This document shows positions 278 through 31,966 of a stretch of DNA of 53,165 bases, one piece after another. This DNA comes from Rhodopseudomonas sp. BR0M22. Its GTDB lineage: Bacteria; Pseudomonadota; Alphaproteobacteria; Rhizobiales; Xanthobacteraceae. Each line of letters starts with the position of its first letter. Positions within the stretch are counted from its first letter, which is position 1. The position numbers and the translations under genes are program-made. The notes beneath the pieces are model-generated. The model did no database searches. It had not been told where the DNA came from and worked only from the letters and a program-made list of their open reading frames with translations. The DNA lies in NCBI RefSeq assembly GCF_010907035.1, contig NZ_QUMK01000037.1, positions 1-53,165 of the forward strand, written 5' to 3'.

Positions 278-649
278 ATGAGTAAGCTGGATCTGTACCG
301 GATGACGACGCAAGATCTCGTGGCTCTATTCGCCAAAGTCACGGTCGAACAGGACGACGCCTTGCTCGGCAACCAGATCGCCAGGTTCAATCGGCTGTTC
401 GGCGTGATGGCGGAGATTGCGGACGAATTAAAAGCGCGCGACGGCGACCAGCGCACCGCGCTTCTGAGCCTTTTCGAATACCCCAATATGCAGGTGCGGC
501 TTCAGGCCGCAAAGCTCACGCTCGCCGTCGCACCAGTGAAGGCGCGTGAGCAGCTCGAAGCGATCGTATCCTCGAAATGGTTTCCGCAAGCCGGTGACGC
601 CGGCATGTGCCTGGACTTTCTGGATGATGGGACGTTCAAGCCGAAATGA
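278..649 (+). CDS. DUF2019 domain protein
   Basis: This is a 123-residue, probably cytosolic, mostly helical protein. The start ATG follows GGAGG by nine bases. The segment QDDALLGNQIARFNRLF, a central LLSLFEYPNMQVRL and a following KLTLAVAP match my memory of DUF2019 proteins, which look like HEAT-type helical repeats and are common in Rhizobiales. Their function is unknown. Some lie near polymorphic toxins, so an immunity role is possible, but no toxin gene is recognisable in the 277 bases upstream. It stands alone on the forward strand and converges with the SLOG/phosphoribosyltransferase pair. The family call rests on pattern memory. Confidence 0.7.
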   Translation: MSKLDLYRMTTQDLVALFAKVTVEQDDALLGNQIARFNRLFGVMAEIADELKARDGDQRTALLSLFEYPNMQVRLQAAKLTLAVAPVKAREQLEAIVSSKWFPQAGDAGMCLDFLDDGTFKPK

Positions 650-4495: not shown

Positions 4496-5425
4496 ATGTC
4501 CGACAATCCTCCGCCGCGCCGCTATCTGCCGCGCGGTTTTCCGCCTGAGGGGCTGGCGGAGGCGAGGCGGCTTTATGAAGAGACTGACGTGCCGCTGGCC
4601 GACGTGGCGGCGCGGTTCGGCACCAATCGGCGCTGCCTGGGCAAGCTGGCGGAGAGCGAGGGCTGGGCATCGCGGTGGAGCCGACAGCGGTTGACGCCTG
4701 TGCCGCGGGCGGTCCGGTTTTCCGACGCGGCTATTGCGCATATCCGGCGTCGCTACGAGGACAGCGACGACACCGTCGAGAGCATCGCCGCGAGTGTCGA
4801 CGCCGATCGCAGCACGATCGAGCGGCTCGCCGAACAGCAGGGCTGGCGGTTGCGCAAGCACCGGCCGCCGCGCGACCTGCCGGAGACCTTGCAGATGCAG
4901 CTCGATGCCGCCGCGACCCTGCTGCAGGCGCGCGCCGCGGAGGCCGGCGAGGCGGTGGCGGCGTTGCCGCCGCCGGCGCAGGCCGTGGCGTGCGAAGCGG
5001 AGGCAAGCGCTGTGACAGACACGGCAGCGACCGAGACGGGGGCGCCGCAGCCGGCCGATCCGGCCGCGCCTGCTGCACCCGAAGCGGTGCTGTCGCTGGC
5101 GCTTCGGCTGGAGCGCGCGGTCGAGACCCAGCTTCGTAAGGTCGAAGACTTGCGCGAGGACGCCGGGGCCGACCCGGCCAGCCGCGCGGTCGAGGCCGAG
5201 CGGATCGCCCGCACGCTGGCGGCGCTGACGCAGACGCTGTTCAAGGTCCGCCAGCTTCGCGATCCCGAGCGCGCGCTCAGCGCCGCCGATGACGAGATGC
5301 CCGCCGATGCCGATGGATTCCGTCTGGAGCTTGCGCGCCGCATTGAGGCGTTTGTCCGCGGCGGGACTGACCGAGAGCTTTCTGCGCGCGACCGGGCTGC
5401 GGACGCTGGCGACGCTGGGGCATGA
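4496..5425 (+). CDS. GTA small terminase-like protein (gp1)
   Basis: This 309-residue protein starts at an ATG behind AAGGGAG; the open frame upstream is low-complexity and rejected. Two similar helix-turn-helix-like units occur at about residues 22-60 (ARRLYEETDVPLADVAARFG) and 83-122 (IRRRYEDSDDTVESIAASVD). An alanine/proline linker follows, then a coiled region (LALRLERAVETQLRKVEDL and AERIARTLAALTQTLFKVRQ). This layout fits the alphaproteobacterial GTA gene 1 / small terminase family, which recognises DNA and assists the large subunit. It overlaps the start of the large terminase by about 137 bases in another frame and opens the GTA cluster. Its N-terminal repeats could instead be simple DNA-binding modules. 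Confidence 0.72.
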   Translation: MSDNPPPRRYLPRGFPPEGLAEARRLYEETDVPLADVAARFGTNRRCLGKLAESEGWASRWSRQRLTPVPRAVRFSDAAIAHIRRRYEDSDDTVESIAASVDADRSTIERLAEQQGWRLRKHRPPRDLPETLQMQLDAAATLLQARAAEAGEAVAALPPPAQAVACEAEASAVTDTAATETGAPQPADPAAPAAPEAVLSLALRLERAVETQLRKVEDLREDAGADPASRAVEAERIARTLAALTQTLFKVRQLRDPERALSAADDEMPADADGFRLELARRIEAFVRGGTDRELSARDRAADAGDAGA

Positions 5426-6662
5426 TTTTGCGGTGTTCGCGCATCCGCATCAGGAGCATGAAGAGGCCGGCAATAACGGCGCGCCGTGGACCACCTGGCT
5501 GATGCTCGGCGGCCGCGGCGCCGGCAAGACGCGGGCCGGCGCCGAATGGGTGCGGGCGCTGGTCGCCGGCACGCCGCCTTATGCGGCGCGGCCTTATGGC
5601 CGGATCGCGCTGATCGGCGAGAGCTGGCACGACGCCCGCGAGGTGATGGTCGAGGGCGAATCCGGCCTCTTACGGATCTCGCCGCGCGCCGAGCGGCCGG
5701 AATGGATCGCCACCCGCAAGCGGCTGGAATGGCCGAACGGCGCGGTCGGCCAGGTGTTCTCCGCCGACGATCCGGACTCTTTGCGCGGTCCGCAATTCGA
5801 GGCGGCGTGGTGCGACGAGCTGGCGAAGTGGCGCTACGCCGAAGCCAGCTTCGACATGCTGCAATTCGGGCTGCGGCTGGGCTCCCGGCCGCGGCAACTG
5901 ATCACCACGACGCCGCGGCCGTTGCCGCTGATCAAGCGGCTCCTGGTCGATCCGCGGACGCGGGTGACGCGGGCGCCGACCCGCGCCAATGCCGAGCATC
6001 TGTCGCCGGCGTTTCTCGACAATGTGGTGGCGCGCTATGCCGGCACGCGGCTCGGCCGGCAGGAGCTGGACGGCGATCTGATCGAGGACCGCCCCGACGC
6101 GCTGTGGTCGCGGGCGCTGATCGAGCGCAGCCGCGTCGCCGAGGCGCCGCCGCTGCAGCGCATCGTGGTGGCGATCGACCCGCCGGCGTCGTCGAAGCCG
6201 GGCGCGGACAGCTGCGGCATCGTCGCGGTGGGGCGCAGCGGCGACGGCGTGTATTTCGTGCTGGAAGACGCTTCGGCGCAGGGGCTGACGCCGGCCGGCT
6301 GGGCCGCCAAGGCGGTGGGGCTGTATCACCGGCTCGAGGCCGATGCGATCGTCGCCGAAATCAACATGGGCGGCGAGATGGTGCGGGCGGTGATCCGCGA
6401 GACGGATTCGGTGGTGCCGATCCGCGAGGTGCGGGCGAGCCGCGGCAAATACGTCCGCGCCGAGCCGGTGGCGGCGCTGTACGAACAGGCCAAGGTCAAG
6501 CACGTCGGCAGCTTCCCGCTGCTCGAAGACGAGATGTGCGACTTCGGCCCCGGCGGCCTGTCGAATAGCCGCTCGCCCGACCGGCTCGACGCACTTGTCT
6601 GGGCCGTCACCGCGCTGGTGAAAGGCGCCAATGCCGGCGGCCCGCGGGTGCGGCTGCTGTGA
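5289..6662 (+). CDS. GTA large terminase (gp2), DNA packaging ATPase/nuclease
   Basis: This 457-residue protein carries a Walker A loop GGRGAGKTRAG at about residues 74-84. A Walker B-like strand ends in WCDELAKW near 180. The C-terminal nuclease half shows VVAIDPPASS near 296 with downstream acidic residues (VAEINMGGEM). It is full length for GTA and HK97-type terminases, which pump DNA into the procapsid. In-frame methionines at 5307 and 5313 are alternative starts, and no strong ribosome site decides between them. In Rhodobacter-type clusters the portal gene follows at once. Here the coding strand goes silent and repeats follow, so the motor is kept without the neighbouring capsid genes. 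Confidence 0.92.
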   Translation: MTRCPPMPMDSVWSLRAALRRLSAAGLTESFLRATGLRTLATLGHDFAVFAHPHQEHEEAGNNGAPWTTWLMLGGRGAGKTRAGAEWVRALVAGTPPYAARPYGRIALIGESWHDAREVMVEGESGLLRISPRAERPEWIATRKRLEWPNGAVGQVFSADDPDSLRGPQFEAAWCDELAKWRYAEASFDMLQFGLRLGSRPRQLITTTPRPLPLIKRLLVDPRTRVTRAPTRANAEHLSPAFLDNVVARYAGTRLGRQELDGDLIEDRPDALWSRALIERSRVAEAPPLQRIVVAIDPPASSKPGADSCGIVAVGRSGDGVYFVLEDASAQGLTPAGWAAKAVGLYHRLEADAIVAEINMGGEMVRAVIRETDSVVPIREVRASRGKYVRAEPVAALYEQAKVKHVGSFPLLEDEMCDFGPGGLSNSRSPDRLDALVWAVTALVKGANAGGPRVRLL

Positions 6663-6682
6663 AGGCGGCGAGGGTGTCGCGT

Positions 6683-6820
6683 GTAGGATGGGCCCGCGCG
6701 CAGCGAAACCCATCACGCGATTGCGGGGGGCCGATGGGTTTCGCTGCGCTCAACCCATCCTACCAGACCTGCTTGGGGTGGATGATGGGTTTCGCTGACG
6801 CTCAACCCATCCTACCAGAA
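6683..6820. repeat. GTAGGATGGG...CCCATCCTAC palindromic repeat cluster
   Basis: The segment begins GTAGGATGGGC, contains CAGCGAAACCCATCACGCG, and is followed by two direct units of GATGGGTTTCGCTG(A)CGCTCAACCCATCCTACCAG. Each unit is self-complementary, and the first forms a long stem with the left arm. This is a Bradyrhizobiaceae-type intergenic palindrome, here in one and a half to two copies. It lies where the portal gene would be expected. Confidence 0.8.
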
Positions 6821-6833
6821 GGCGAAGCAGCGC

Positions 6834-7145
6834 TCAGCAGTAGCCGTACCAGCCGCAGGCGTAGGGCAGGCGGCCGAAGATCAGGTTCGGATCGGTGCCG
6901 TAATAGCTGCGGTACAGATACGAGCGCGGCTTGCCGTAGTAGCCGTGCACGATCGGCGGCACGTCGACCTCCGGCGCATACACCGGCGTGCCGCTTTCCA
7001 TCTCCAGCGATTGCCGCACGCCGCGCGGCTTCGGTTGCGGCTCGGCGAAGATCTTGCCGATCTTGCTGTGCATTGGCAGATCGGCCGCCCGCGCGGGCCA
7101 GGCCAGCGGCAACGCGATCAGCAGTAGCAGCACGACACGCAACAT
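6834..7145 (-). CDS. Small secreted protein, unknown
   Basis: This 103-residue protein has a clear signal peptide (MLRVVLLLLIALPLAWPARA, cleavage about residue 20-21). The mature part is short and rich in tyrosine and proline, with VHGYYGKPRSYLYRSYYGT, and ends CGWYGYC with two cysteines. I do not recognise a family. It lies between two repeat blocks on the strand opposite the GTA genes, in the gap left by the missing portal-protease-capsid genes. Export is supported by the sequence; the function is unknown. Confidence 0.65.
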   Translation of the reverse strand: MLRVVLLLLIALPLAWPARAADLPMHSKIGKIFAEPQPKPRGVRQSLEMESGTPVYAPEVDVPPIVHGYYGKPRSYLYRSYYGTDPNLIFGRLPYACGWYGYC

Positions 7146-7220
7146 GGCGGCACTCCGGAGTGAGATGCCGCGAGGGTGGGCGATTATGGTTAATAAAGAT
7201 TAACCATCGGCGTTTTCCCC

Positions 7221-7305
7221 GTCATTGCGAGCGCAGCGAAGCAATCCAGGCGCCGTGCACCGAGCCTCTGGATCGCGTCGTCGGCTGCGCCGCCTCGCGA
7301 TGACG
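7221..7305. repeat. Palindromic repeat A, copy 1 (GTCATTGCGAGC...)
   Basis: The left arm GTCATTGCGAGCGCAGCGAAG, continuing into GCAATCCAGG, is answered by CTCTGGATCGCGTCGTC and CGCCTCGCGATGACG. The two halves form a long imperfect hairpin. Further copies are at 10991-11110 and 30524-30606. All three lie between genes, close to GTA genes. Confidence 0.85.
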
Positions 7306-7307
7306 AG

Positions 7308-8075
7308 CTATCGGCTGAGCGCCGAGCCCCAGCTTTGCGCGGTGCGGGCGATCCAGTCGCGGTACAGCGTCAGCGGGGTGACGCCGGTGAGGCCGCCGCA
7401 GCCGGCGCTGTTGCCGGGGCCGGTCGACCACGACACCACGCCGATCACCACCAGCCGGTCGTTCTGCGCCTGCAGCGCCGGGCCGCCGGAATCGCCGGTG
7501 AAGGCGCCTAAGCCCGCGCTGCCGCCGGTGGCGGCGGGATCGGTGAGGCGGATCTGCAGCCGGCCGGGGCGGCCGGTCGCGGTCAGCGTCGCGCTGCGGG
7601 CAGTGCCGCCGCTCTTGCCGTCGCCGCGCCGGGTGACGCCGATGCCGGCGACGGTGAAGTCCTGGCCGGCGGCGAGCGGATCCTCCGGCGCCGCGATCGG
7701 CAGCGGCGCCTTGCCGGGCAGCGGCGCGGCGAGCTTGAGCAGCGCGACGTCGGCGCTGGCGCGGTGGCCGAGGATCGCGCCCATGTCGAATTCCGGATGC
7801 GCCGCGACGCGGGCGACATCGCGCAGGCTGGGCTGCCGCTGCGCGTCGTAATGCACCACCTTGTAGTCCGCGCCGGGGCCGACGCAGTGCGCGGCGCTCA
7901 GCACCAGATCGGGCGCGATCAGCGTTCCCGAACAGAAATTGCCGCGCGAGCCGACGATGGTGACCAGGGCGCGGGAAAGCGCGCCGGTCGCCTCGGGCGC
8001 GCCGCCGACCATTGCGGCGGCCGGTGAGGCCAGCGCGGCGACGAGCAGACAGCCGAATGTGAGCGAGCGGATCAT
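7308..8075 (-). CDS. Secreted trypsin-like serine protease (S1 family)
   Basis: Starting at MIRSLTFGCLLVAALASPA, the protein has 255 residues with a signal peptide cleaved near AAAM. The S1 triad is visible: histidine in LVLSAAHCVG, aspartate in SADVALLKLA and serine in TGDSGGPALQ. Cysteines in SAAHC, FCSGTL and AGCGGLT could form the usual disulfides. It should act in the periplasm or outside the cell. It faces against the GTA genes and is not a prohead protease of the HK97 or ClpP type, so it does not replace the missing GTA gp4. An upstream in-frame start at 8129 is possible but would bury the signal peptide. Confidence 0.85.
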   Translation of the reverse strand: MIRSLTFGCLLVAALASPAAAMVGGAPEATGALSRALVTIVGSRGNFCSGTLIAPDLVLSAAHCVGPGADYKVVHYDAQRQPSLRDVARVAAHPEFDMGAILGHRASADVALLKLAAPLPGKAPLPIAAPEDPLAAGQDFTVAGIGVTRRGDGKSGGTARSATLTATGRPGRLQIRLTDPAATGGSAGLGAFTGDSGGPALQAQNDRLVVIGVVSWSTGPGNSAGCGGLTGVTPLTLYRDWIARTAQSWGSALSR

Positions 8076-8140
8076 GCCGGCGCGTTTCGCCCGCCGCCGC
8101 GGCGCTGTCAATCGCCGATCACCAACCATGAGGAACCACC

Positions 8141-8710
8141 ATGCCGATGCTGCTGCTGGCCGGGCCGGCCGCCGAGCCGTGGACCATCACGGATCTGAAG
8201 AGCTTCCTGCGCGTCGAGCACGACGCCGACGACGCGGTGATCGCCTCGCTGCTGACCGCGGCGCGGGCCCAGATCGAAGCCTGGACCGGCAAGATGCTGC
8301 TGGCGCAGCGCTGGCGGCTGGTGCTGGATGCCTGGCCGCGCGACGGCCGCATCGTGCTGCGTGGCGGCCCGCTGCGGGCGCTGATCGCGGTGCGGACCTA
8401 CGACGCGCACGGCGCCGCGCACGATGTCGATCCCGCCGGCTTCGTGCTCGATCTCGCCGCCGACGTGATCGCGGCGCCGCGCTGGGCGCTGCCGGAGCCG
8501 GGGCGCCCGGTCGCCGGCATCGAGCTCGACCTCGAACTCGGCTACGGCACCGCGCCGGACGATGTCCCGCCGCCGCTGCGCCACGCGGTGCGCCTGCTGG
8601 CGGCGCAGTGGTACGACAACCGCGGCGACGCTGCGTCCGGAGCCGGCTCCGCGGTGCTGCCTGGCGGCGTCGCTGCGATGATCGCGGGCTATCGCACGGT
8701 GACGCTGTGA
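8141..8710 (+). CDS. GTA head-tail adaptor (gp6-like)
   Basis: This 189-residue protein opens with the typical connector helix region (EPWTITDLKSFLRVEHDADD, then VIASLLTAARAQIEAWTGK). This is the head-tail connector family that joins portal to stopper (RcGTA gp6, HK97 gp6-like). The ATG follows AGGA. Its stop overlaps the GTG start of the next gene (GTGA). It is the first GTA gene after the gap in which portal, protease and capsid should stand, and it has no portal partner in the window. Confidence 0.85.
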   Translation: MPMLLLAGPAAEPWTITDLKSFLRVEHDADDAVIASLLTAARAQIEAWTGKMLLAQRWRLVLDAWPRDGRIVLRGGPLRALIAVRTYDAHGAAHDVDPAGFVLDLAADVIAAPRWALPEPGRPVAGIELDLELGYGTAPDDVPPPLRHAVRLLAAQWYDNRGDAASGAGSAVLPGGVAAMIAGYRTVTL

Positions 8711-9027
8711 TCGATCCCGGCCGCTTGAACCGCCGGCTGACACTGCTGGCGCCGGTCGAGACCGACGACGGGCAGGGCGGCGTGGCGCGGAGTTACGCGG
8801 CGCAGGCGGTGGTGTGGGCCAGCGTGACGCCGCTCGCCGCGCGCGAGGGCGTCGCGGCCGATCAAGATCTTGCCGCGCTGCGCGCCAAGATCACGCTGCG
8901 CGCCGGCGTGGCGCTGTCACGCGCGCACCGGCTCGCGGACGGCGACAGCGTGTACCGCATCATCGCCTGGCGCAGCCGCGAGCGCGGCGCGCTGCTCGAG
9001 ATCGACGCCGAGACGGAGCAGACATGA
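8707..9027 (+). CDS. GTA head closure / stopper protein (gp7-like)
   Basis: This 106-residue protein has a GTG start overlapping the gp6-like stop. The sequence PGRLNRRLTLLAPVETDDGQ, the tryptophan in VVWASVTPL and the late segment DGDSVYRIIAWR are typical of phage head-tail joining/closure proteins (SPP1 gp16/HK97 gp10 type). It should form the ring that closes the head after packaging. Its end overlaps the next start (ATGA), continuing the tight GTA operon. Confidence 0.85.
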   Translation: MIDPGRLNRRLTLLAPVETDDGQGGVARSYAAQAVVWASVTPLAAREGVAADQDLAALRAKITLRAGVALSRAHRLADGDSVYRIIAWRSRERGALLEIDAETEQT

Positions 9028-9434
9028 CCCCTGCCAGCGTTGCGCTGCGCGCGGCGATCCACCGCGCGCTGATCACCGACACCGCGCTGCTCGCCGCGCT
9101 CGGCGGGCCGCGGATCTACGACGAGCCGCCGCGCGAGGCGGCGTTTCCGTTCGTCACCCTCGGCGAAGCGCGGATCAGCGACGTCTCCGCCGACGACGCG
9201 CCGACCCAGGAGCATCAACTGACGCTGCACGCCTGGTCGCGGCAGGGCGGCCACAAGGAGGCGCACCTCATCACCGGCGCGCTGCTGCAGGCGCTGGATG
9301 ATGCGCCGCTGGCCCCGTCCGGCCATCGCCTCGTCAATCTGCGGTTCGCGCTCGCCGACATCCGCCGCGAGCCCGACGGCCGCACCTATCACGCCTTGGT
9401 GCGATTTCGCGCCGTCACCGAACCAGTTAGTTAG
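9024..9434 (+). CDS. GTA tail terminator, DUF3168 family (gp8-like)
   Basis: This 136-residue protein matches the DUF3168 / tail completion pattern: an N-terminal helix (ALRAAIHRALITDTALLAAL), the turn RIYDEPPREAAFPFVTLG, and the strand QLTLHAWSRQGGHKEAH. Members cap the tail tube and connect it to the stopper. The ATG overlaps the previous stop, so translation is probably coupled. Confidence 0.87.
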   Translation: MTPASVALRAAIHRALITDTALLAALGGPRIYDEPPREAAFPFVTLGEARISDVSADDAPTQEHQLTLHAWSRQGGHKEAHLITGALLQALDDAPLAPSGHRLVNLRFALADIRREPDGRTYHALVRFRAVTEPVS

Positions 9435-9446
9435 CAGGAGCCGCGC

Positions 9447-9854
9447 ATGGGCGCACAGAAGGGCAAGGATCTGCTGCTCAAGATCCACGACGGCACCAAC
9501 TACGTCACCGTCGCCGGCTTGCGCAGCCGCAAGATCGCGTTCAACGCCGAACTGGTCGATATCACCCACGCCGAATCCGCCGACCGCTGGCGCGAGCTGC
9601 TGGCCGGCGCCGGGGTGCGCCGCGCCTCGATCTCCGGCCGCGGCCTGTTCAAGGATTCCAGCTCCGACGCGCTGGTGCGCAGTGCGTTCTTCAGCGGGCT
9701 GATCAGCGACTGCCAGGTGGTGGTGCCGGATTTCGGCAGCATCGCCGGGCCGTTCCAGATCGCCAGCCTCGAATTCGCCGGCGAACACAACGGCGAAGTC
9801 ACCTTCGACCTGACGCTGGAGAGCGCCGGCGCGCTCGGCTTCGTCGCCATCTAG
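9447..9854 (+). CDS. GTA major tail tube protein (gp9-like)
   Basis: This 135-residue protein starts MGAQKGKDLLLKIHDG and contains LRSRKIAFNAELVDITHAES and WRELLAGAGVRRASISGRG, hallmarks of the TP901-1/HK97-like tail tube family in GTA clusters. It should polymerise into the tail tube. The start follows AGGAG. Length and order match RcGTA gp9. Confidence 0.9.
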   Translation: MGAQKGKDLLLKIHDGTNYVTVAGLRSRKIAFNAELVDITHAESADRWRELLAGAGVRRASISGRGLFKDSSSDALVRSAFFSGLISDCQVVVPDFGSIAGPFQIASLEFAGEHNGEVTFDLTLESAGALGFVAI

Positions 9855-9863
9855 GAGGACACG

Positions 9864-10181
9864 ATGGCCAACAGACATCGCGGCGAGATCGAAGCCGAAC
9901 TCGGCGGCCGCACCCGCACGCTGGTGCTGACGCTCGGCGCGCTCGCCGAACTCGAAGCCGCGTTCGCTGCCACTGATCTCGTCGCACTGGCGCAGCGCTT
10001 CGGCAGCGGGCATCTGTCGGCGCGCGATCTGGTCCGGATCATCGCCGCGGGCCTGCGCGGCGCCGGCGAGGCGGTGCGCGACGACGAGGTCGCGGCGATG
10101 AAGGTGAGCGGCGGCGCCGCCGGCTATGCCGGCATCGCGGCCGAGTTGCTGGCAGCGACCTTCGGCGAGGCCGCGGCGTGA
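9864..10181 (+). CDS. GTA gp10-like tail assembly chaperone
   Basis: This 105-residue protein begins MANRHRGEIEAELGGRTRTL, followed by LTLGALAELEAAFAATDLVA, the pattern of the 'gene transfer agent family protein' gp10, thought to act as a tail assembly chaperone. The ATG follows AGGAGG. Its stop overlaps the GTG start of the next gene. RcGTA has gp10 and gp10.1 in the same order. Confidence 0.85.
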   Translation: MANRHRGEIEAELGGRTRTLVLTLGALAELEAAFAATDLVALAQRFGSGHLSARDLVRIIAAGLRGAGEAVRDDEVAAMKVSGGAAGYAGIAAELLAATFGEAAA

Positions 10182-10381
10182 CGCCGTTTCCGTGGGCGGA
10201 GGCGATGCAGTTCGGCCTCGGCGTGCTGCGGCTGCCGCCCGATCAGTTCTGGCGGATGACGCCGCGCGAACTCGCCGCCGCGATCGCCGGCCTGCGCGGC
10301 GGCGCAACGGCGCCGCTCGGCCGCGCCGCGCTCGACGAGCTGATGCGGCGCTATCCGGATCACCAGGAGCTGATGCGATGA
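10178..10381 (+). CDS. GTA gp10.1-like tail assembly chaperone (rcc01693 family)
   Basis: This 67-residue protein has a GTG start overlapping the upstream stop. The sequence FPWAEAMQFGLGVLRLPPDQ then FWRMTPRELAAAI is characteristic of the small GTA chaperone that follows gp10. It ends in an ATGA overlap with the tape measure gene. The short length is normal for the family. Confidence 0.85.
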   Translation: MTPFPWAEAMQFGLGVLRLPPDQFWRMTPRELAAAIAGLRGGATAPLGRAALDELMRRYPDHQELMR

Positions 10382-10971
10382 CGAGCGATGGCACCAGCGA
10401 GAGCTGCGACTGCGGCTGCGTCGAGGAGACGACGCAGAAGGTGGAGCAACTCACCACCAAGACCCAGGCGCTCAGCAGCGAAGCCAAGGGCTTCGCGCGG
10501 GCGATGACCTCGGCGTTCTCGCAGTCGATCACCGGCGGCAAGCAGTTCGAGGACGTGCTGAAGTCGCTGGCGCTGAAGGTCTCGGATCTGGCGGTCAAGG
10601 CGGCGCTGAAGCCGCTGACCACCAGTCTCGCCAGCGGCTTCGACAGCCTGTTCTCGGGATTGTTCGGCGGCACCACCGCCAAGAACGCCGACGGTGCGAT
10701 CAAGCCGTTCGCATCGGGCGGCGTGATCGGCACGCCGACCTACTTCCCGATGCTCGGCGGCGGCGTCGGTCTTGCCGGCGAGGCGGGCCCCGAGGCGATC
10801 CTGCCGCTGTCACGCGGCGCCGACGGCCGGCTCGGCGTCGCCTCCAGCGGCGGCGCCACCACGGTGAACATCCAGATCGCGACGCCCGACGCCGACAGCT
10901 TCCGCCGCTCCGAGACTTACCTCACCGGCCAGATCGCCCGCGCCGTCGCGCGCGGCCAGCGCGGGCTTTGA
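10378..10971 (+). CDS. GTA short tape measure protein (gp11-like)
   Basis: This 197-residue protein starts in an ATGA overlap with gp10.1. An N-terminal coiled stretch (ETTQKVEQLTTKTQALSSEA) and FARAMTSAFSQSITGGKQFE precede the conserved C-terminal region FASGGVIGTPTYFPMLGGGV and GEAGPEAILPLSRG found at the end of many tape measure proteins. GTA tape measures are about 200 residues, matching their short tails, so this is not a truncated long phage protein. It should set tail length and help DNA pass the envelope. Confidence 0.88.
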   Translation: MTSDGTSESCDCGCVEETTQKVEQLTTKTQALSSEAKGFARAMTSAFSQSITGGKQFEDVLKSLALKVSDLAVKAALKPLTTSLASGFDSLFSGLFGGTTAKNADGAIKPFASGGVIGTPTYFPMLGGGVGLAGEAGPEAILPLSRGADGRLGVASSGGATTVNIQIATPDADSFRRSETYLTGQIARAVARGQRGL

Positions 10972-10990
10972 GCCCGCGGCCTTCCATCCA

Positions 10991-11110
10991 CGCCATTGCG
11001 AGCACAGCGAAGCAATCCAGTTCCTTGATGTGCTGAGCCTGGATTGCTTCGTCGCGGAGCCCGTGGCCGGACGGCGCGTCGCGCCGATCCGGGTGCTCCT
11101 CGTAATGACG
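10991..11110. repeat. Palindromic repeat A, copy 2
   Basis: CGCCATTGCGAGCACAGCG and AAGCAATCCAG are answered by CTGGATTGCTTCGTCGCGG and CTCCTCGTAATGACG. This is the same family as 7221-7305 and 30524-30606, with a longer central part. It separates the tape measure and distal tail genes, which are otherwise expected to be adjacent. Confidence 0.85.
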
Positions 11111-11126
11111 ATGAAGGACTCATCGC

Positions 11127-11765
11127 ATGACCTCCTTCCACGAAATCCTGTTTCCGCTCGACGTCGCGCTGAAAAGCGCGGGCGGGCCGGAGCGGCGCAC
11201 CGAGATCGTCGGCTTCGGGTCGGGCCGCGAACAGCGCAACGCGCGCTGGGCGGACTCGCGGCGGCGCTACGACGCCGGTTACGGCGTCAAGACGTTCGAG
11301 GCGCTGCAGCAGGTGGTGGCGTTCTTCGAGGAGCGCCGCGGCCCGCTCACCGGCTTCCGCTGGCGCGACCGGCTGGATTGCAGCTCCGCCGCGCCCGGTG
11401 CGCCGATCTCGCCGCTGGACCAGGGCATCGGCATCGGGGACGGAGCGCGCGCCAGCTATCAACTCGTCAAGACCTACGGCGCGGGCTTTGCGCCCTATGT
11501 GCGCACCATCGCCAAGCCGGTCGCCGGCAGCGTTCGCGTCGCGGTCGGCGGTGTCGAGGCTGCGGCCGCCGCGTTCGCCTGCGATTCCGCCACTGGTCTC
11601 GTCACCTTCGCGCCCGGCCATCTGCCGCCGTCCGGCGCCGCCGTGACTGCCGGATTTCAGTTCGACGTGCCGGTGCGGTTCGATACCGACTACCTCGAAA
11701 TCGATCTCTCGGCGTTTGCGGCCGGCGCCATTCCGAAGATCCCGCTGGTCGAAATCAAGGTGTGA
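11127..11765 (+). CDS. GTA distal tail protein, DUF2460 (gp12-like)
   Basis: This 212-residue protein carries the DUF2460 pattern: FHEILFPLDVALKSAGGPER, QQVVAFFEERRGPLTGFRWR and FRWRDRLDCSS. DUF2460 proteins form the distal tail ring (RcGTA gp12). The C-terminal half is rich in beta strands and ends IPLVEIKV. In RcGTA the hub gene gp13 follows directly. Here its counterpart starts about 10.7 kb later, beyond flagellin and acyl-CoA genes. Confidence 0.88.
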   Translation: MTSFHEILFPLDVALKSAGGPERRTEIVGFGSGREQRNARWADSRRRYDAGYGVKTFEALQQVVAFFEERRGPLTGFRWRDRLDCSSAAPGAPISPLDQGIGIGDGARASYQLVKTYGAGFAPYVRTIAKPVAGSVRVAVGGVEAAAAAFACDSATGLVTFAPGHLPPSGAAVTAGFQFDVPVRFDTDYLEIDLSAFAAGAIPKIPLVEIKV

Positions 11766-14638: not shown

Positions 14639-14649
14639 CGACACCGAAG

Positions 14650-14684: not shown

Positions 14685-14703
14685 CTGATCCTGGAGAGAA
14701 CAA

Positions 14704-15258: not shown

Positions 15259-15271
15259 GGGCGGCACGGAC

Positions 15272-16145: not shown

Positions 16146-16189
16146 AGCGGTTCATCGTTTGATTGACACGATCCGACCTTTCCGAAGGC

Positions 16190-21242: not shown

Positions 21243-21249
21243 GCGCATC

Positions 21250-22500: not shown

Positions 22501-23412
22501 ATGCGCAGCATTCCGGATGCGTTGCAGGCCAGACTCGACGGCGGCGTCACCACGCTGGCGCAGTGTTGGATCGTGCGGCGGCGGGACGGTGTCGTGCTCG
22601 GCTTCACCGACCACGACCGCGATCTCGTCATCGAGGGCGTGAGTTGTCGCGCCGGCACCGGGTTCTCGGCGTCGGAGGCGTCGCAGCGGTTCGATCTGTC
22701 GGTCGATGGTGCGGAGATTTCCGGCGCGCTCGATGACGATCTGCTGCGCGAGGCGGATCTCGCCGCCGGGCGCTACGATGCGGCGGCGATCGAGAGCTGG
22801 CTGGTGGATTGGAGCGCACCCGAGCTGCGGGTGCTGACCGCGCGCGGCACGCTCGGCGAGGTGCGGCGCGAGGGCGCTGCGTTCACCGCGGAGCTGCGCG
22901 GGCTCGCCGATCTGCTGTCGCAGGAGAGTGGCCGGCTTTACGCCGCGGCGTGTAGCGCCGATCTCGGCGACGCGCGCTGCCGCGTCGATCTCGGCAGTCC
23001 GGCGCGGCGCGGCGAGGGGACAGTCGTCGCGGCGCCAGGGACCTCCACTATCACGGTCTCCGGGCTGGACGGCTTCACACCCGGCCTGTTCACCGCCGGC
23101 CGGCTGAGCTGGCGCAGCGGCGCCAACCAAGGCGCGGCGGTCGAGATCAAGCAGCATCGCATCGTCGGCGGCGAGGTGCGGTTGTCGCTGTGGCAGGCGA
23201 TGGCCGAACCGATCGCGCCCGGCGACGGCTTCGTCGTCACCGCCGGCTGCGACAAGCTGTTCGCGACCTGCCGCGACCGCTTTGCTAACAGCGACAATTT
23301 CCGCGGCTTCCCGCAGATTCCCGGCAACGATTTCGTCGTCAGCTATCCGGTGCCCGGCGCGCCCGGCAACACCGGCGAGCCGATCGGTCCGGTGCTGCGC
23401 AGCGATCTGTGA
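22501..23412 (+). CDS. GTA tail hub protein, DUF2163 (gp13-like)
   Basis: This 303-residue protein has the DUF2163 / phage BR0599-like pattern. Its start is IPDALQARLDGGVTTLAQCW, followed by GFSASEASQRFDLSVDGAE and the C-terminal FRGFPQIPGNDF. Cysteines at YAAACSADLGDARC and AGCDKLFATCRDRF form a four-cysteine set. My recollection is that the R. capsulatus counterpart binds an iron-sulfur cluster, and the set here is complete. It forms the hub between distal tail protein and gp15. The start follows GAGGAG. Gp12 lies 10.7 kb upstream instead of next door. Confidence 0.9.
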   Translation: MRSIPDALQARLDGGVTTLAQCWIVRRRDGVVLGFTDHDRDLVIEGVSCRAGTGFSASEASQRFDLSVDGAEISGALDDDLLREADLAAGRYDAAAIESWLVDWSAPELRVLTARGTLGEVRREGAAFTAELRGLADLLSQESGRLYAAACSADLGDARCRVDLGSPARRGEGTVVAAPGTSTITVSGLDGFTPGLFTAGRLSWRSGANQGAAVEIKQHRIVGGEVRLSLWQAMAEPIAPGDGFVVTAGCDKLFATCRDRFANSDNFRGFPQIPGNDFVVSYPVPGAPGNTGEPIGPVLRSDL

Positions 23413-23451
23413 CCGCGTCACGATCTCATCACGCAATGGAGCGAGGGCACG

Positions 23452-23904
23452 ATGGATCAGCCATTGGGGCGCGACGCGATTGTCGCCGAAGCGCGGAGCT
23501 GGATCGGCACGCGCTATCGGCATCAGGCCTCGGTGAAGGGCGTCGGCTGCGATTGCCTCGGCCTGGTGCGCGGGGTGTGGCGCGCCTGTCTCGGCGACGA
23601 GCCGGAAGCGCCGCCGCCTTACGCGCCGGATTGGGCCGAAGCCGGCGGCGACGAGACGCTGGCGGCGGCGGCGCTGCGCCATCTGGTGCCGGTGCCGTGC
23701 GATGCGTTCGATCGCGGCGACGTGCTGCTGTTCCGCTGGCGCGATGGGTGTGTCGCCAAGCACGCCGCGATCGCCTGTTCGGCCACGATGATGATCCACG
23801 CGCACGACGGCGCGGCGGTGTGCGAGGTCGCGATCACGCCGTGGTGGCGGCGCCGGCTCGCCTATGCGTTCACGTTTCCCGGCGTTGCAGATCCGCTGCG
23901 TTGA
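23452..23904 (+). CDS. GTA NlpC/P60-type tail peptidase (gp14-like)
   Basis: This 150-residue protein has the catalytic cysteine in VGCDCLGLVRGVW (cysteine-leucine-glycine in the usual NlpC position) and the histidine in CVAKHAAIACS, as in NlpC/P60 peptidases of phage tails. It should cut peptidoglycan peptide bonds during DNA entry. Order and length match RcGTA gp14. In RcGTA, gp15 follows directly; here a GFA gene, a repeat and an unknown gene intervene. Confidence 0.9.
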   Translation: MDQPLGRDAIVAEARSWIGTRYRHQASVKGVGCDCLGLVRGVWRACLGDEPEAPPPYAPDWAEAGGDETLAAAALRHLVPVPCDAFDRGDVLLFRWRDGCVAKHAAIACSATMMIHAHDGAAVCEVAITPWWRRRLAYAFTFPGVADPLR

Positions 23905-25253: not shown

Positions 25254-28200
25254 ATGGCAGCTCTCGTTCTTTCCGTCGCCGGCGCTGCGGCCGGTGCGCT
25301 GTTCGGTCCGGTCGGCGCGATCGCCGGGCGGATTGCGGGCGCGCTGATCGGCAATGCGCTGGATCAGTCGCTGTTCGGCGGCAGCAGCGATACGTCGCGC
25401 GCGGTCGAAGGGCCGCGGCTCGCTGATCTCGACGTGATGGCCTCGACCGAAGGTGCACCGATCCCGCGGGTCTATGGCCGCGCCCGGCTCGCCGGCCAGG
25501 TGATCTGGGCGACCGCGCTCGAGGAGGTGATCAGCGTCGAGCAGAGCACCACCGGCGGCGGAGGCGGCGGCAAGGGCTTTGGCGGCGGCGGAGGCGGGCA
25601 GACCACGGCTACCACCACGACCTACAGTTACTTCGCCAATTTTGCGGTCGGGCTGTGCGAAGGGCCGATCGGTCGGGTGGCGCGGATCTGGGCCGACGGC
25701 AAGCCGCTCGATCTGACCGGGCTGAATGTTCGCGTCCATCGCGGCACCGAGGATCAGGCGCCCGACGGGCTGATCGTCGCCAAGGAAGGCGCCGGCAATG
25801 CGCCGGCCTATCGCGGGCTGGCTTACGTCGTGTTCGAACGGCTGCCGCTCGCCGATTTCGGCAACCGGATTCCGCAATTATCGTTCGAGATCGTGCGGCC
25901 GATCGGCCTGCTCGAACAGCTCACCCGCGGAGTAACGCTGATCCCCGGCACCACCGAATTCGGCTACGAGCCGGCGACGCGGGTGCAGGTGCTCGGCGCC
26001 GGCAGCGCGGCGCCGGAGAACCGCCATGTCGCCTATGCGGCGTCCGATGTGCTGGCCTCGTTCGACGATCTGCAGGGCGTCTGTCCGGGGCTGCAGCGCG
26101 TCGCGCTGGTGGTGGCGTGGTTCGGCACCGATCTGCGGGCGCAGGCCTGCACGGTGGAGCCCGGCGTCGAGCGCCGCGACAAGAAGCTCGACCATGGCAC
26201 CTGGTCGGTAGCCGGCGCGACCCGCGCCAGCGCACGGCTGATCTCGCAGCTTGGCGGGCGGCCGGCCTATGGCGGCACGCCGTCCGACGAGACCGTGACG
26301 CATCTGATCGGCGAACTGAAAGCGCGCGGGCTGAAGGTCACGTTCTATCCGTTCGTGGTGATGGACGTGCCGGCCGGCAACGGCCTGCCCAATCCGTGGA
26401 CCGGCGCGGCGCCGCAGCCGGCTTATCCCTGGCGCGGCCGTATCACTTGCGATCCGGCGCCCGGCGTGCCGGGCTCACCGCAGGGGACGGCGACGGCCGC
26501 CGCGCAGATGGCGCAGTTCTTTTCGGGCGGTGTCTGGAATTATCGCCGCATGATCCTGCATTACGCGCGGCTCTGCGCCAGTGCCGGCGGCGTCGATGCG
26601 TTCCTGATCGGCTCGGAGCTGCGCTCGCTGACTCGGGTGCGCTCCGCGCCTGGCGTGTACCCGGCGGTGCAGCAGCTCGTCGCGCTCGCCGCCGACGTCA
26701 AGGCGATCGTCGGCGGCGGCACGCTGGTCACGTATGGAGCCGACTGGACCGAATACGGCGCCGACGTGGTGACGCCGGACGCGTCGGAGGTGCGGTTTCC
26801 GCTCGACCCGCTGTGGGCCTCGCCGGTGATCGGCGCGATCGGAATCGATTACTACGCACCGCTGGCCGATTGGCGGGACGATGCTGGCCATCTCGACTCG
26901 GCGCTCGCCGCCACCACTTACGATCGCGATTACCTTGCCGGCAATGTCGAGGCCGGGGAGGGCTACGACTGGTACTACCCGGACGCGGCGGCTCGCGCAG
27001 CGCAGGCACGGGTGCCGATCACCGACGGGCTCGGCAAGCCGTGGATGTATCGCGTCAAGGACATCCGCAGTTTCTGGTCGCAGCCGCATGTCGAACGGGT
27101 CGGCGGCACTGAGTTAGCGTCTCCGACCGGCTGGGTGCCGATGAGCAAGCCGGTGTGGCTGACCGAGGTCGGCTGCCCGGCGGTCGACAAGGGCGCCAAT
27201 CAGCCGAGCGTGTTTCCCGATCCGAAATCGAGCGAGAACTACGCGCCGTATTTCTCCAGCGGCGAGCGCGACGATCTGATCCAGCGCCGCTATCTCGAAT
27301 GCCTGATCACGGCGTTCAGCGCCGAGGCCCGCAATCCGGTGTCGCCGCTGTATGGCGGTGCGATGATCGATCTGTCGGCGATCCATCTGTGGACCTGGGA
27401 CGCGCGGCCCTATCCGGTGTTTCCGGCCGCGGAGGATGTGTGGAGCGACGCGCCGAACTGGACCTGCGGGCACTGGCTGACCGGCCGGCTCGGCGGCGCG
27501 CCGCTCGATGCGCTGATTGCCGCGCTGCTCACTGACGCCGGTGTCAGCGGCGTCGACAGCAGCGACCTACGCGAAGGCTGCGACGGCTATGTGGTCGACC
27601 GGCCGATGGCGCCGCGGGCGATGATCGAGCCGTTGGCGCTGGCCTACAGCTTCGAGGCGGAGGCGGCCGGCGGCGTGCTGCGCTTCGTGCAGCGCGGCGG
27701 CGCGCCGGTGATCGACCTGAACGAAGACGATCTGGTGCTGCCCGATAAAGGCGCGCCGTGGCAGCTGACGCGGGCGCAGGAGACCGAGCTGCCGCGCGAA
27801 ACCGCGATCGCCTACAGCGACGCGCTGGCCGATTATCGTCGTGCCGCGGCAGCCTCGCGCCGGCTGGTCGGCGGTGCGGCGCGGATGGTGAAGGCCGATC
27901 TGGCGGTCGTCACCAACGACGCCGCGGCGACCCGGCGCGCCGAGATCGTGCTGCAGGATCTGTGGGCCGGCCGCGAGCGCGCAAGCTTCGCGCTCGGCCT
28001 GCGGCATCTGCGGCTGGCGCCCGGCGATGTCGTGGCGCTGTCGCTCGCTGGCCGGCGGCGGTTGTTCGAGATCGACGAGGTGGTCGACACCAGCACGCGG
28101 CAGATCACGGCGCGCAGCATCGATCCCGACGTGTTCGCGCTGCCGCAGCGGATGCCGCGGCCGTCCGCGGTGGCGATCCCGGCCGCGCTCGGCCCGGCCG

Positions 28201-29126
28201 AGGTGATCGCGCTCGATCTGCCGGTGATCGATACTGCTGCGCCCGACGTGCTAACGCGGCTCGCGGTGTTCGCCAATCCGTGGCCGGTAGCCGAGACGAT
28301 CTACGTTTCGGCGGATGGCGCCAGCTATCAACCGCTGGCGAGCGCGCCGGCGCGGACCATCATCGGCACCACGCTCGATCCGCTGCCGCGCGGGCCGCTG
28401 GCGCGGTGGGACCGCGCCACGACGTTTCGGGTGCGGATCGGCGGCGGCGCGCTGGCGTCGCTGTCGGAACTGCGGGTGCTGGCCGGCGGCAATGCCGCGG
28501 CGGTGCAGACGTCCGACGGCTGTTGGGAGATCCTGCAATTCGTCCATGCCGAACTGATCGACGGCAACATTTATCGCTTGTCGCATCTGTTGCGCGGGCA
28601 GGCCGGCAGCGACGCCGCCATGCGCGATCTCGTGCCGGCCGGGGCGCGGTTCGTGCTGCTCGATACCCATCTGGTGCCGATCGCGCGCGGGCTGTCGGCG
28701 CTCGGCCGTAGCCTGCGGCTGCGCGTCGTCGCAAGCGGGCGCAGCCATGACGATGCCAGCGCGGTCGACCTGACCGTGGCGCCGGGGCTGACCGCGCTAC
28801 GGCCGCTGGCGCCGGTGCATCTGACCGCGCGCCGCACTGCCGATGGCATTCGCATAGGCTGGATCCGCCGCACCCGGATCGATGGCGACGGCTGGGGCGT
28901 CGAGGTGCCGCTCGGCGAGGAGCGCGAAGCCTATACGCTCGACATCCTCGGAAGCGGCGGCGCGGTGGTGCGGTCGATCCAAACCGCCGCACCGCAAGCG
29001 CTGTACGCCGCCGCCGATGAGCTTGCGGATTTCGGCGCGTCGCAAGCCTCGCTCACGCTCCGCGTCGCGCAGCTTTCCGCCGCGGTCGGACCGGGCTTCG
29101 CCGCCACCGCCACTTTCGCGTTGTGA
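25254..29126 (+). CDS. GTA tail tip / host-specificity protein (gp15, 'megatron')
   Basis: This 1290-residue protein, close to the roughly 1300 residues of RcGTA gp15, opens with a hydrophobic glycine/alanine segment (GAAAGALFGPVGAIAGRIAG). Next come RVYGRARLAGQVIWAT (about 65-80) and a glycine-rich loop near 103-117. The central GTA TIM-barrel-like region includes IGIDYYAPLADWRDD and WLTEVGCPAVDKGANQPSVF. C-terminal beta domains contain YRLSHLLRGQAGSDAAM. It forms the tail tip that contacts the recipient and releases the tape measure. The GTA order continues from gp14 across two non-GTA genes. The start at 25254 is preferred over an upstream in-frame ATG. Confidence 0.93.
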   Translation: MAALVLSVAGAAAGALFGPVGAIAGRIAGALIGNALDQSLFGGSSDTSRAVEGPRLADLDVMASTEGAPIPRVYGRARLAGQVIWATALEEVISVEQSTTGGGGGGKGFGGGGGGQTTATTTTYSYFANFAVGLCEGPIGRVARIWADGKPLDLTGLNVRVHRGTEDQAPDGLIVAKEGAGNAPAYRGLAYVVFERLPLADFGNRIPQLSFEIVRPIGLLEQLTRGVTLIPGTTEFGYEPATRVQVLGAGSAAPENRHVAYAASDVLASFDDLQGVCPGLQRVALVVAWFGTDLRAQACTVEPGVERRDKKLDHGTWSVAGATRASARLISQLGGRPAYGGTPSDETVTHLIGELKARGLKVTFYPFVVMDVPAGNGLPNPWTGAAPQPAYPWRGRITCDPAPGVPGSPQGTATAAAQMAQFFSGGVWNYRRMILHYARLCASAGGVDAFLIGSELRSLTRVRSAPGVYPAVQQLVALAADVKAIVGGGTLVTYGADWTEYGADVVTPDASEVRFPLDPLWASPVIGAIGIDYYAPLADWRDDAGHLDSALAATTYDRDYLAGNVEAGEGYDWYYPDAAARAAQARVPITDGLGKPWMYRVKDIRSFWSQPHVERVGGTELASPTGWVPMSKPVWLTEVGCPAVDKGANQPSVFPDPKSSENYAPYFSSGERDDLIQRRYLECLITAFSAEARNPVSPLYGGAMIDLSAIHLWTWDARPYPVFPAAEDVWSDAPNWTCGHWLTGRLGGAPLDALIAALLTDAGVSGVDSSDLREGCDGYVVDRPMAPRAMIEPLALAYSFEAEAAGGVLRFVQRGGAPVIDLNEDDLVLPDKGAPWQLTRAQETELPRETAIAYSDALADYRRAAAASRRLVGGAARMVKADLAVVTNDAAATRRAEIVLQDLWAGRERASFALGLRHLRLAPGDVVALSLAGRRRLFEIDEVVDTSTRQITARSIDPDVFALPQRMPRPSAVAIPAALGPAEVIALDLPVIDTAAPDVLTRLAVFANPWPVAETIYVSADGASYQPLASAPARTIIGTTLDPLPRGPLARWDRATTFRVRIGGGALASLSELRVLAGGNAAAVQTSDGCWEILQFVHAELIDGNIYRLSHLLRGQAGSDAAMRDLVPAGARFVLLDTHLVPIARGLSALGRSLRLRVVASGRSHDDASAVDLTVAPGLTALRPLAPVHLTARRTADGIRIGWIRRTRIDGDGWGVEVPLGEEREAYTLDILGSGGAVVRSIQTAAPQALYAAADELADFGASQASLTLRVAQLSAAVGPGFAATATFAL

Positions 29127-30626: not shown

Positions 30627-31391
30627 ATGAAAATCGACGAATCCTTGCTGCGGCGGATGTGGCCGCAGGGCGATCGGCGCGTGGCGGGACTGATTGCCGG
30701 CACCGCCGCGGCCTCCGAGAGCGTATTCGCGCGGTTCGGTATCGATACGCCGAATCTCGCCGCGCATGTGATGGCGCAACTCAGCCACGAATGCGGGGCA
30801 GGGCAGGAGGTGGTGGAGAACATGAACTACACCGCGGCGCGGATGATGCAGGTGTGGCCGTCGCGGTTTCCGACGCGGGCGAGTGCGGAGCCGTATGCGC
30901 ACAATCCGCGGGCGCTCGCCAACAAGGTCTACAACGGCCGGATGGGCAATCGCGCCGGCTCCGACGACGGCTGGACATTTCGCGGCCGCGGCGCGGCGCA
31001 GACCACCGGGCGTGAGGGCTATCAGCGGCTGGCTGCGATCACCGGTCTCGATCTGGTGAACGATCCCGATCTGCTGCTCGATCCGCGCTACTTCCTGCTC
31101 GGCGGCGTCGGCGATTTCGTCGCCTGCGGCTGTCTGCCGTTCGCGCGGGCCGACGATGTGGTCGGCGTCACCCGGCGACTCAACGGCGGCACCATCGGGC
31201 TCGCCGAGCGCAAGGCGTGGCTGACCAAATGGCGGGCGGAGTTGGCCGCACCGCCAGCGGTGATCGCATCGCCGCCGCTCGCGTCCGACCTGCCCGCGGA
31301 CGCGCCGCCGCGACCGCAACCGACACCGCCTTCATCGTCTCGGTGGAGCCAACTCATCGCCGCGCTGGTTGCGGCCTTCAGGAGGGACTGA
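30627..31391 (+). CDS. GH19 (chitinase-like) endolysin
   Basis: This 254-residue enzyme starts MKIDESLLRRMWPQGDRR. The GH19 features are the catalytic glutamate in MAQLSHECGAGQEVVENMNY (about 50-57), NKVYNGRMGNRAGSDDGWTF, RGRGAAQTTGREGYQRL and the late LTKWRAEL. Phage GH19 lysozymes cut the glycan strands of peptidoglycan. The last 45 residues are proline-rich with a hydrophobic end. It is followed after two bases by a GTA-type holin, so the two form a lysis unit. R. capsulatus uses a different endolysin from an unlinked locus. Confidence 0.88.
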   Translation: MKIDESLLRRMWPQGDRRVAGLIAGTAAASESVFARFGIDTPNLAAHVMAQLSHECGAGQEVVENMNYTAARMMQVWPSRFPTRASAEPYAHNPRALANKVYNGRMGNRAGSDDGWTFRGRGAAQTTGREGYQRLAAITGLDLVNDPDLLLDPRYFLLGGVGDFVACGCLPFARADDVVGVTRRLNGGTIGLAERKAWLTKWRAELAAPPAVIASPPLASDLPADAPPRPQPTPPSSSRWSQLIAALVAAFRRD

Positions 31392-31393
31392 TC

Positions 31394-31966
31394 ATGGATT
31401 GGGCCGATCTCGCCAAACAGGTGATTGCGCTCGGCGCTCCGGTGCTCGGCAGCGCGCTCGGCGGGCCGCTCGGCGGCGCGGCCGGCAAGATCCTGTCCGA
31501 GGCGCTGGGAGCGCCGTCGCCGACGCCGGACGCGGTGCAGGCTTCGCTGCCGGTAGCCGTGCCGGACCAGATCGCCGAGGCCGAGAGACTCTGGTGCGAG
31601 GCGATCCGTGCCGAGGCGGAGACCCAGCGGATCGCCATTTCCGAGACCCAGGCCACGATCCGCGCCGAGCTGGCCGCGAGCGATCCGGTGCAGCGCTGGT
31701 GGCGGCCGGCCTACGCGTTCGAGCTGACCGCCGAATGCGCCGCGTTGTGGGCGGTGCTGGTGCACGAATTCTGGACCGGGGACGTCGCCACCATCAACGC
31801 GCTGATCGGCGCCACCGCGCTCCTGGTCGCCTATTGGGGTTTCCGATTCGGCGTGCTAGGCGTCTACGTCAGCGGCCGGACCCGTGAAAAGGTCTGCGCT
31901 GCCACCGGGCAGGACAGCCCGAGCGTGATCGACAGGCTGGCCAAAGCGGTCGTGAAGAAAAAGTAA
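31394..31966 (+). CDS. Holin of 3TM GTA-release type
   Basis: This 190-residue protein starts MDWADLAKQVIALGAPVLGS behind GGAGGG. The middle segment PVQRWWRPAYAFELTAECAA is the hallmark of the GTA_holin_3TM family ('W.RP' followed by membrane spans). Hydrophobic stretches lie near 11-30, 108-125 (AALWAVLVHEFW) and 130-155 (LIGATALLVAYWGFRFGVL). It should open the inner membrane for the endolysin during particle release. It closes the GTA region; the next gene is a response regulator. Confidence 0.88.
   Translation: MDWADLAKQVIALGAPVLGSALGGPLGGAAGKILSEALGAPSPTPDAVQASLPVAVPDQIAEAERLWCEAIRAEAETQRIAISETQATIRAELAASDPVQRWWRPAYAFELTAECAALWAVLVHEFWTGDVATINALIGATALLVAYWGFRFGVLGVYVSGRTREKVCAATGQDSPSVIDRLAKAVVKKK

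Follow-up and report, generated by a model that had tools for sequence, protein, structure and literature searches.

A Rhodopseudomonas gene transfer agent cluster in which a second terminase pair appears to have displaced the original one

The closest described system to the locus reported here is RcGTA, the alphaproteobacterial type I gene transfer agent (GTA) of Rhodobacter capsulatus, in which the genes run small terminase (TerS), large terminase (TerL), portal, protease, capsid and adaptor. In published work, the RcGTA TerS is given as a protein of 107 aa with no detectable helix-turn-helix (HTH), absence of the HTH is proposed as a defining trait of GTA TerS, and loss of this DNA-binding domain is offered as the cause of random packaging, a hallmark of GTAs (PMC6854486). 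The nuclease domain of GTA TerL proteins is described as holding a paired proline and cysteine, with alanine at the first position in RcGTA itself (PMC7947584, in part). We analysed a 53,165-nucleotide stretch of Rhodopseudomonas sp. BR0M22 (the window), which is contig C90, taken from its first base, of a 5.29-Mb genome in 159 contigs, and which contains an RcGTA-like cluster.

The locus resembles RcGTA in most parts. The capsid, portal and megatron have the RcGTA proteins as their nearest solved chains (6tba for the megatron, gp15), the distal tail, hub and NlpC peptidase families match, and the TerL has the P/C pair. Unlike in RcGTA, the terminase genes follow the capsid instead of preceding the portal, minus-strand genes stand before gp6, the tail module is split, and TerS is a 309-aa protein with two HTH repeats rather than a 107-aa protein without one (PMC6854486, in part). 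The RcGTA-type structural set (portal, protease, HK97-type capsid, tail genes, megatron) is present, and the order of genes departs from that of RcGTA. We therefore describe what is probably an RcGTA-like cluster complete in head, tail and packaging genes, whose original pair, TerS1-TerL1, was displaced by a distantly related pair, TerS2-TerL2, which would act as the packaging motor. The displacement itself, by a second GTA-type pair lying between capsid and adaptor, is very probable; its basis is the gene order, contigs that abut by synteny, relatives with both pairs, and two TerL clades. On the sequence evidence it would be the terminase pair, not the head, that changed place and lineage, and the cluster would be a variant of the RcGTA-like type with a non-canonical order and a TerS outside the published definition. 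Members of the Rhodogtaviriformidae are currently listed only from Rhodobacterales hosts (PMC9662315, in part); the host here is Rhodopseudomonas. Our literature searches listed no paper whose title concerns a GTA terminase that is permuted or doubled, a weak negative, with the older surveys of alphaproteobacterial GTA clusters lying outside the coverage.

The head genes and the place of the terminase

Within the window, TerS2-TerL2 (4496-6662) is followed by two minus-strand genes (6834-8129) and by gp6-gp12 (8141-11765). The first-pass annotation had noted that portal, protease and capsid are missing between TerL and the adaptor, which held: there is no frame for any of them within 6663-8140. 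It had proposed that the head module moved elsewhere in the genome or that the locus makes head-less, tailocin-like tails. A genome-wide search for portal and capsid gave one match over the family cut-off for each, both on contig C11, plus one additional match below cut-off for each; the protease was identified on C11 between the two, with small genes between portal and protease. C11 ends 63 bases past the capsid stop, and the head genes are thus outside the window because a contig boundary severs the head module.

In relatives the two contig ends meet. In the G005 locus (L020), positions 5513-5699 match the final 187 bases of C11 and positions 5700-6347 match window bases 10-656, so that the ends abut; in G004 and G010 they map about 40-50 bases apart, in G010 adjoining a second copy of the capsid end, and in G003 window matches start only at base 272, about 1.1 kb after the C11 end. 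Since C11 and the window adjoin in relatives, the head module would lie directly upstream of window base 1, the C11-C90 join being drawn from synteny alone. The single-contig genomes G003, G004 and G010 keep the full set together, TerS-TerL lying downstream of portal-protease-capsid in the same orientation. Misassembly, which had been named as a possible cause of the gene order, was rejected on this ground, as the order recurs in these three genomes. A locus making tails without heads is favoured by the window itself, which has no head genes, but portal, protease and capsid on C11 and the intact sets of the single-contig relatives speak against it; tailocins have tails without head and packaging genes, while both kinds of gene are found here, and we regard this reading, like a relocated head module, as scarcely credible.

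The terminase position was compared across 61 genomes, our own included, of which 45 had a capsid match, 50 a TerL match, 45 a gp15 match and 42 a tail tube match; genes were mapped on 40 fetched stretches (G024 and G064 are one genome entered twice). Three gene orders occur among 16 Rhodopseudomonas genomes. Seven are canonical, with TerS1-TerL1 ahead of the portal (G001, of which only the head side is seen, with no tail tube match, and G006, G007, G008, G009, G011 and G014); two, both single-contig, carry TerS1-TerL1 plus TerS2-TerL2 behind the capsid (G002, G012); and seven, hereafter swap genomes, have TerS2-TerL2 behind the capsid only (G000, G003, G004, G005, G010, G013 and G015, the window genome among them). 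In these seven TerS2-TerL2 includes the sole RcGTA-type TerL detected. No TerS1 or TerL1 remnant was found before the portal in six of the seven, save three chance-level matches in G015 (E 0.34-0.73); the G013 stretch begins inside the portal, and G013 has a single TerL match genome-wide. This shows the terminase to be an exchangeable part of these clusters, with both-terminase states persisting in complete genomes.

Two TerL lineages and their history

When genome_contigs was scanned with the TerL of the window, the best 80 of 588 relatives yielded 79 titled loci, and the shares below refer to this sample. In a 94-row TerL tree (same-genome duplicates and short rows left out; quick search, no bootstrap), the TerL proteins in the permuted place form one clade of 14 rows (SH-aLRT 98) with members from Rhodopseudomonas, Tardiphaga robiniae, Rhodoplanes elegans, Rhodoplanes serenus, 'Rhodovulum' PH10 and a metagenome-assembled genome (MAG). 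Capsid and TerL share a contig in 10 of the 14; the other four (G000, G015, L053, L054) are split over contigs and were placed as permuted via synteny or the trypsin-gp6 side. The sister of this clade consists of 10 lone TerS-TerL pairs (support 96). A separate canonical clade of 24 rows (99) holds TerL1 of this genus together with Nitrobacter, Afipia and some MAGs. One row near the permuted group (L055) has a TerL 71% identical to that of the window, yet stands in the canonical place.

These lineages bear on whether the native terminase was merely translocated past the head module. Swap genomes hold one terminase only, as translocation would predict, but TerL2 falls outside the same-genus TerL1 clade with support on both sides in this quick tree, and both TerL kinds occur together in G002 and G012, which leaves translocation most improbable. 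Both kinds are also present in Tardiphaga and the MAG, and a single TerL in the two Rhodoplanes and PH10. The canonical Nitrobacteraceae clusters (Rhodopseudomonas faecalis, Nitrobacter, Afipia) share the structural genes and the minus-strand trypsin gene before gp6 with our locus; they differ in having TerS-TerL before the portal, a TerL of the other clade, and a TerS without HTH that is rich in Lys, Ala and Thr.

An rpoB tree was built for 24 of 26 genomes (G001 and G007, with rpoB in pieces, were left out). Six swap genomes form one clade (100/100), and the seventh, G013, groups with canonical G011 (97.1/91) and G008 (100/100); its TerL2 clusters with those of G000 and G003 (99), unlike its rpoB placement. 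Because the rpoB and TerL trees conflict, we infer that TerL1 was lost in at least three places (the six-genome swap clade, G013 and the Rhodoplanes group) and that the cassette was transferred at least once. Canonical G006 stands amid both-terminase genomes (81.8/80), and therefore loss of TerL2 is also conceivable.

Alternatively, TerS2-TerL2 could be the remnant of a prophage or satellite that inserted into the cluster and has no part in GTA function. Genomes with both terminases are known (G002, G012, Tardiphaga, one MAG), lone pairs occur away from GTA genes, and the cluster has three cargo-rich spots, all of which would fit a remnant. Against it, this pair provides the only RcGTA-type TerL detected in seven same-genus genomes, no other phage structural genes lie beside it in the cluster, and TerL2 has the GTA-typical P/C residues (P299 and C309 in the window protein). 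The P/C pair is found in 94/94 TerL, a comparison without phage TerL which cannot alone exclude phage origin. All 367 phage TerL records matched by TerL2 are below 60% identity, lower than TerL1 (about 65%), and a phage origin of TerL2 was rejected on this basis. We consider a remnant improbable, and displacement by a second GTA-type pair remains the preferred reading. Apart from single variants, the permuted and orphan rows retain the Walker motifs; one row, taken as the interrupted G015 copy, lacks the last RNase H motif.

To see whether the lone pairs are satellites, the open reading frames of 8/12 loci labelled orphan were listed and read by eye; the label includes two short contigs (L066, L075) outside the clade of ten. 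The eight pairs (L042, L043, L057, L058, L059, L060, L062, L064) lie among housekeeping-type genes without other GTA genes, with a FAH-like gene within about 3 kb in 5/8 and MurB- and MurC-like genes in two (names by eye). Some share a neighbour gene across different genomes, and L042 has one REP-type transposase-like frame. In four of eight genomes with orphan-labelled loci a GTA capsid lies on a different contig (G068, G069, G072, G073); none was found in the other four (G067, G070, G071, G074), a weak absence as many are MAGs. G027 has two lone pairs plus a canonical cluster. In the Brachyspira GTA (BhGTA) terL likewise lies outside the main locus (PMC9662315, in part); BhGTA belongs to an unrelated GTA family, and the lone pairs here mostly occur either alongside a canonical pair or in its stead.

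The best 80 matches of a TerL scan of viral_contigs were kept, and two of these were examined. One metagenomic permuted locus (L158) has LuxR- and LuxI-like frames (by eye) after TerL2 (L158:7174-8600); the other (L157) is an IMG/VR contig with the same TerL2 break as G015, matching residues 1-429. In G015 the TerL2 match ends after residue 429 and the remainder, from residue 413, lies about 18 kb off (L026:1-15552, L027:15591-15731), with phage-like frames (by eye) inside the interruption. An att-like duplication at this site was not borne out, there being just a 9-base match.

Predicted DNA-binding repeats in TerS2 and selection on the cluster

The window TerS2 contains two HTH repeats by profile (E 8e-26 and 1e-24), the profile having been built from ten repeats of this genus and thus being partly circular for these rows. 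An AlphaFold2 model (mean pLDDT 77.5, pTM 0.42) places helices at 17-55 and 77-115, which make up a pair of tri-helical units modelled at pLDDT 84-95, followed by a coiled coil at 194-255. In the G013 homologue HTH_7 exceeds the Pfam cut-off. The predicted architecture is like that of phage TerS with an N-terminal HTH (SPP1/SF6), which combine HTH, coiled coil and a C-terminal part beside TerL (PMC6854486, in part), and is unlike it in having two tandem HTH units and in sitting in a GTA cluster.

We then counted the HTH with an iterated profile in 92/104 TerS (12 duplicates dropped; TerS was not found at L103 and L114). It is present in 13/14 permuted TerS, with two copies in nine, all of this genus; in 11/12 orphan TerS; in 37/42 other canonical TerS of the order; and in 0/24 TerS of the canonical clade holding TerS1. 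In this last clade Lys, Ala and Thr are abundant in the N-terminal part of TerS (median 0.44 vs 0.23-0.25). The HTH-less permuted row and the HTH-less orphan row both start near a contig start. The HTH is therefore common in the order, with one lineage lacking it, and the swap would have restored it, in doubled form in Rhodopseudomonas. Window TerS2, judged by profile and model with Pfam silent, lies outside the published definition of GTA TerS by its N-terminal HTH, as do the 37/42 other canonical TerS.

Among the TerS2 of nine genomes of the genus, the HTH region falls into five discrete types, 89-96% identical within and 46-59% between types. Compared between types, the C-terminal parts of the seven swap genomes are 75-98% identical. 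The HTH part has been recombined between strains onto this shared C-terminal part: TerS2 of G004 joins the HTH type of G000 (89%) to the C-terminal part of G005 (98%), and G000 and G003 have a common C-terminal part (91%) with different HTH types (51%). Nucleotide identity, taken in windows, places the break near 5096; the last third of TerL holds another divergent block (76-84% between G000 and G004/G005/G010, 6096-6695), and the trypsin gene stands at 93-98%. TerS N-terminal-like pieces lie upstream of TerS2 in G002, G012 and G013.

The ratio of nonsynonymous to synonymous divergence (dN/dS; NG86, own script, median over the swap group of 6-7 genomes) stays under 0.6 in each of the cluster genes compared. 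The values are 0.14 for portal, 0.20 for capsid, 0.33 for protease, 0.35 for TerL2, 0.44 for trypsin and 0.12-0.58 for gp6-gp15; TerS has 0.55, raised by the comparison of unlike HTH types. Lysis genes reach 0.20-0.22 (n=3) and flagellin 0.16 (n=4). In the comparison of G002 with G012 both TerL are constrained (TerL1 0.17, TerL2 0.145). If the cluster were decaying, with packaging disused, the terminase exchange would be inconsequential, and this is hinted at by the host genes that split the tail module at gp12/gp13, by the roughly 18-kb interruption of TerL2 in G015, and by dN/dS values exceeding those of the inserted fatty-acid genes (0.03-0.06, n=3). Yet all named cluster frames of the window genome are open, the dN/dS medians indicate constraint and the GTA holin is retained; decay is therefore unlikely. 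The earlier view that the genes are intact and under selection was drawn from tight overlaps, which are present (a few bases between adjacent frames of gp6/gp7/gp8 and gp10/gp10.1/gp11), and the dN/dS medians agree with it.

Under the displacement reading, TerS2 would bind DNA through its HTH pair and recruit TerL2, which would fill, via the portal, the head encoded just upstream; tails of gp6-gp15 would be attached to the filled heads and the lysis genes would release the particles, all as expected from the protein families. Because the DNA-binding part occurs as discrete strain-specific types, these may select different packaging start sites, and packaging preferentially from type-specific sequences instead of random ones is a tentative possibility, somewhat less than an even prospect. 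Several points weigh against this picture. The profile that detects the window HTH came from the same genus, Pfam gives no HTH in the window TerS2, and a Foldseek search with its model gave 0 matches at E <= 0.001, and its best hit (E 0.33) was to a transposase, in the bipartite DNA-binding domain. One-HTH TerS proteins are frequent elsewhere among the canonical clusters of the order (37/42), so that the presence of an HTH does not by itself imply directed packaging. For TerL2 and a number of small genes dN/dS is 0.27-0.58, above portal, and TerL2 is interrupted in G015.

A more speculative idea, to which we give little weight, makes TerS2-TerL2 a selfish cassette for packaging within a domesticated phage. 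The DNA load of RcGTA is reported to be about 4 kb, into which the roughly 2.2-kb cassette would fit and the whole cluster would not. A strain-specific HTH pair recognising a sequence in or beside its own gene would make the cassette over-represented in particles, letting it spread between strains and displace the resident terminase; if so, the HTH types, the mosaic borders and what looks like a transfer into G013 would be its traces. RcGTA-like clusters in which a TerS with two predicted DNA-binding repeats replaced an HTH-less TerS, with types that recombine, make the choice of DNA packaged by a GTA directly testable.

Layout of the cluster and its cargo genes

The coordinates are collected in Table 1. 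The first-pass annotation had described adaptor, stopper and a full tail set, of which gp6-gp10 are supported by Pfam (Phage_HCP, Tail_completion_gp17, Phage_tail_2 and Phage_TAC_11 for gp7-gp10, gp9 also by NCBIfam), and the names gp10.1 and gp11 come from position and conservation alone. The tail is not contiguous, as 10.7 kb lie between gp12 (end 11765) and gp13 (22501); the downstream blocks are host genes at about 11963-22377, gp13-gp15 (22501-29126) and the lysis genes, where the holin match reaches 26 bits against a cut-off of 24.8. The insert (11963-22377) comprises a flagellin-like gene, a LuxR-type regulator and fatty-acid-type genes (names by eye). The same set occurs in G003 and G015 and part of it in G005, different inserts are seen in G004 and G010, and none in G002, G009, G012 and G014.

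Table 1. Features of the cluster in the window and of the head module on contig C11 (window positions unless a locus is given)
Feature	Position	Strand	Evidence
Portal	L005 (= C11) 10507-11679		family match
Protease	L005 (= C11) 13112-13840		family match
Capsid	L005 (= C11) 13974-15224		family match
Cargo gene, DUF2019 family, first after capsid junction	278..649	+	Pfam PF09450 E 1e-53
Two cargo genes between capsid and TerS2	730-1284 and 1291-2040	-	no Pfam family over cut-off
TerS2, small terminase, 309 aa: two predicted N-terminal HTH repeats, coiled coil, C-terminal part	4496..5425	+	profile + AlphaFold2
TerL2, large terminase of the permuted-place lineage; overlaps TerS2, start codon uncertain	5289..6662	+	Terminase_6N/6C, tree
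REP-like inverted and direct repeats	6698..6819	.	sequence repeats
Small gene with signal-peptide-like start, between terminase and adaptor	6834..7145	-	no Pfam family
Trypsin-type (S1) protease gene	7308..8129	-	Pfam Trypsin E 2.3e-26
gp6, head-tail connector (adaptor)	8141..8710	+	TIGR02215 E 1.9e-78, also Pfam
gp7, gp8, gp9 (tail tube), gp10, gp10.1, gp11	8707..10971	+	Pfam for gp7-gp10
gp12, distal tail protein	11127..11765	+	TIGR02217 (Rcc01695 family) E 4e-101
gp13 (baseplate hub) and gp14 (NlpC/P60 peptidase)	22501..23904	+	TIGR02218 E 2e-92, TIGR02219 E 4e-72
gp15, megatron	25257..29126	+	NF048004 GTA_megatron 1773.6 bits
Lysis genes: endolysin-like and GTA holin (GTA_holin_3TM)	30627..31966	+	PF00182 E 0.005 (below cut-off); PF11351

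Behind the terminase, 1.5 kb of repeats and two unrelated reverse-strand genes had been described. The two genes stand, and the clear repeats, REP-like (resembling repetitive extragenic palindromes), amount to about 120 bases, with a 12-base piece of another repeat at 7238-7249; repeats as a cause of a lost head module were rejected as they cover little sequence. The small minus-strand gene has a counterpart in the identical position in same-genus relatives. The trypsin gene is widespread beyond this locus: a minus-strand copy lies between capsid and gp6 in 36/44 fetched genome_contigs loci having both, and before gp6 also in canonical genomes of the genus, and so it predates the terminase swap.

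The capsid end seems to be a recurrent insertion spot. The DUF2019 gene stands behind the capsid in several relatives too, and homologues of the following gene pair adjoin the capsid in G001, G005, G006 and G011. Pieces of about 30-95 codons from the capsid 3' end occur downstream of the full capsid (L024:16081-16353; L016:8675-8827, 9048-9206; L010:8877-9002), with similar ones in L029, L031, L035, L037, L040, L051 and L093, and the DUF2019 gene and the gene pair often lie between full capsid and piece. On the head side, a gene between portal and protease (L005:11796-12389) has an Imm1 immunity match below cut-off (17.9 of 22.4 bits), and G005 carries two copies or versions of it.

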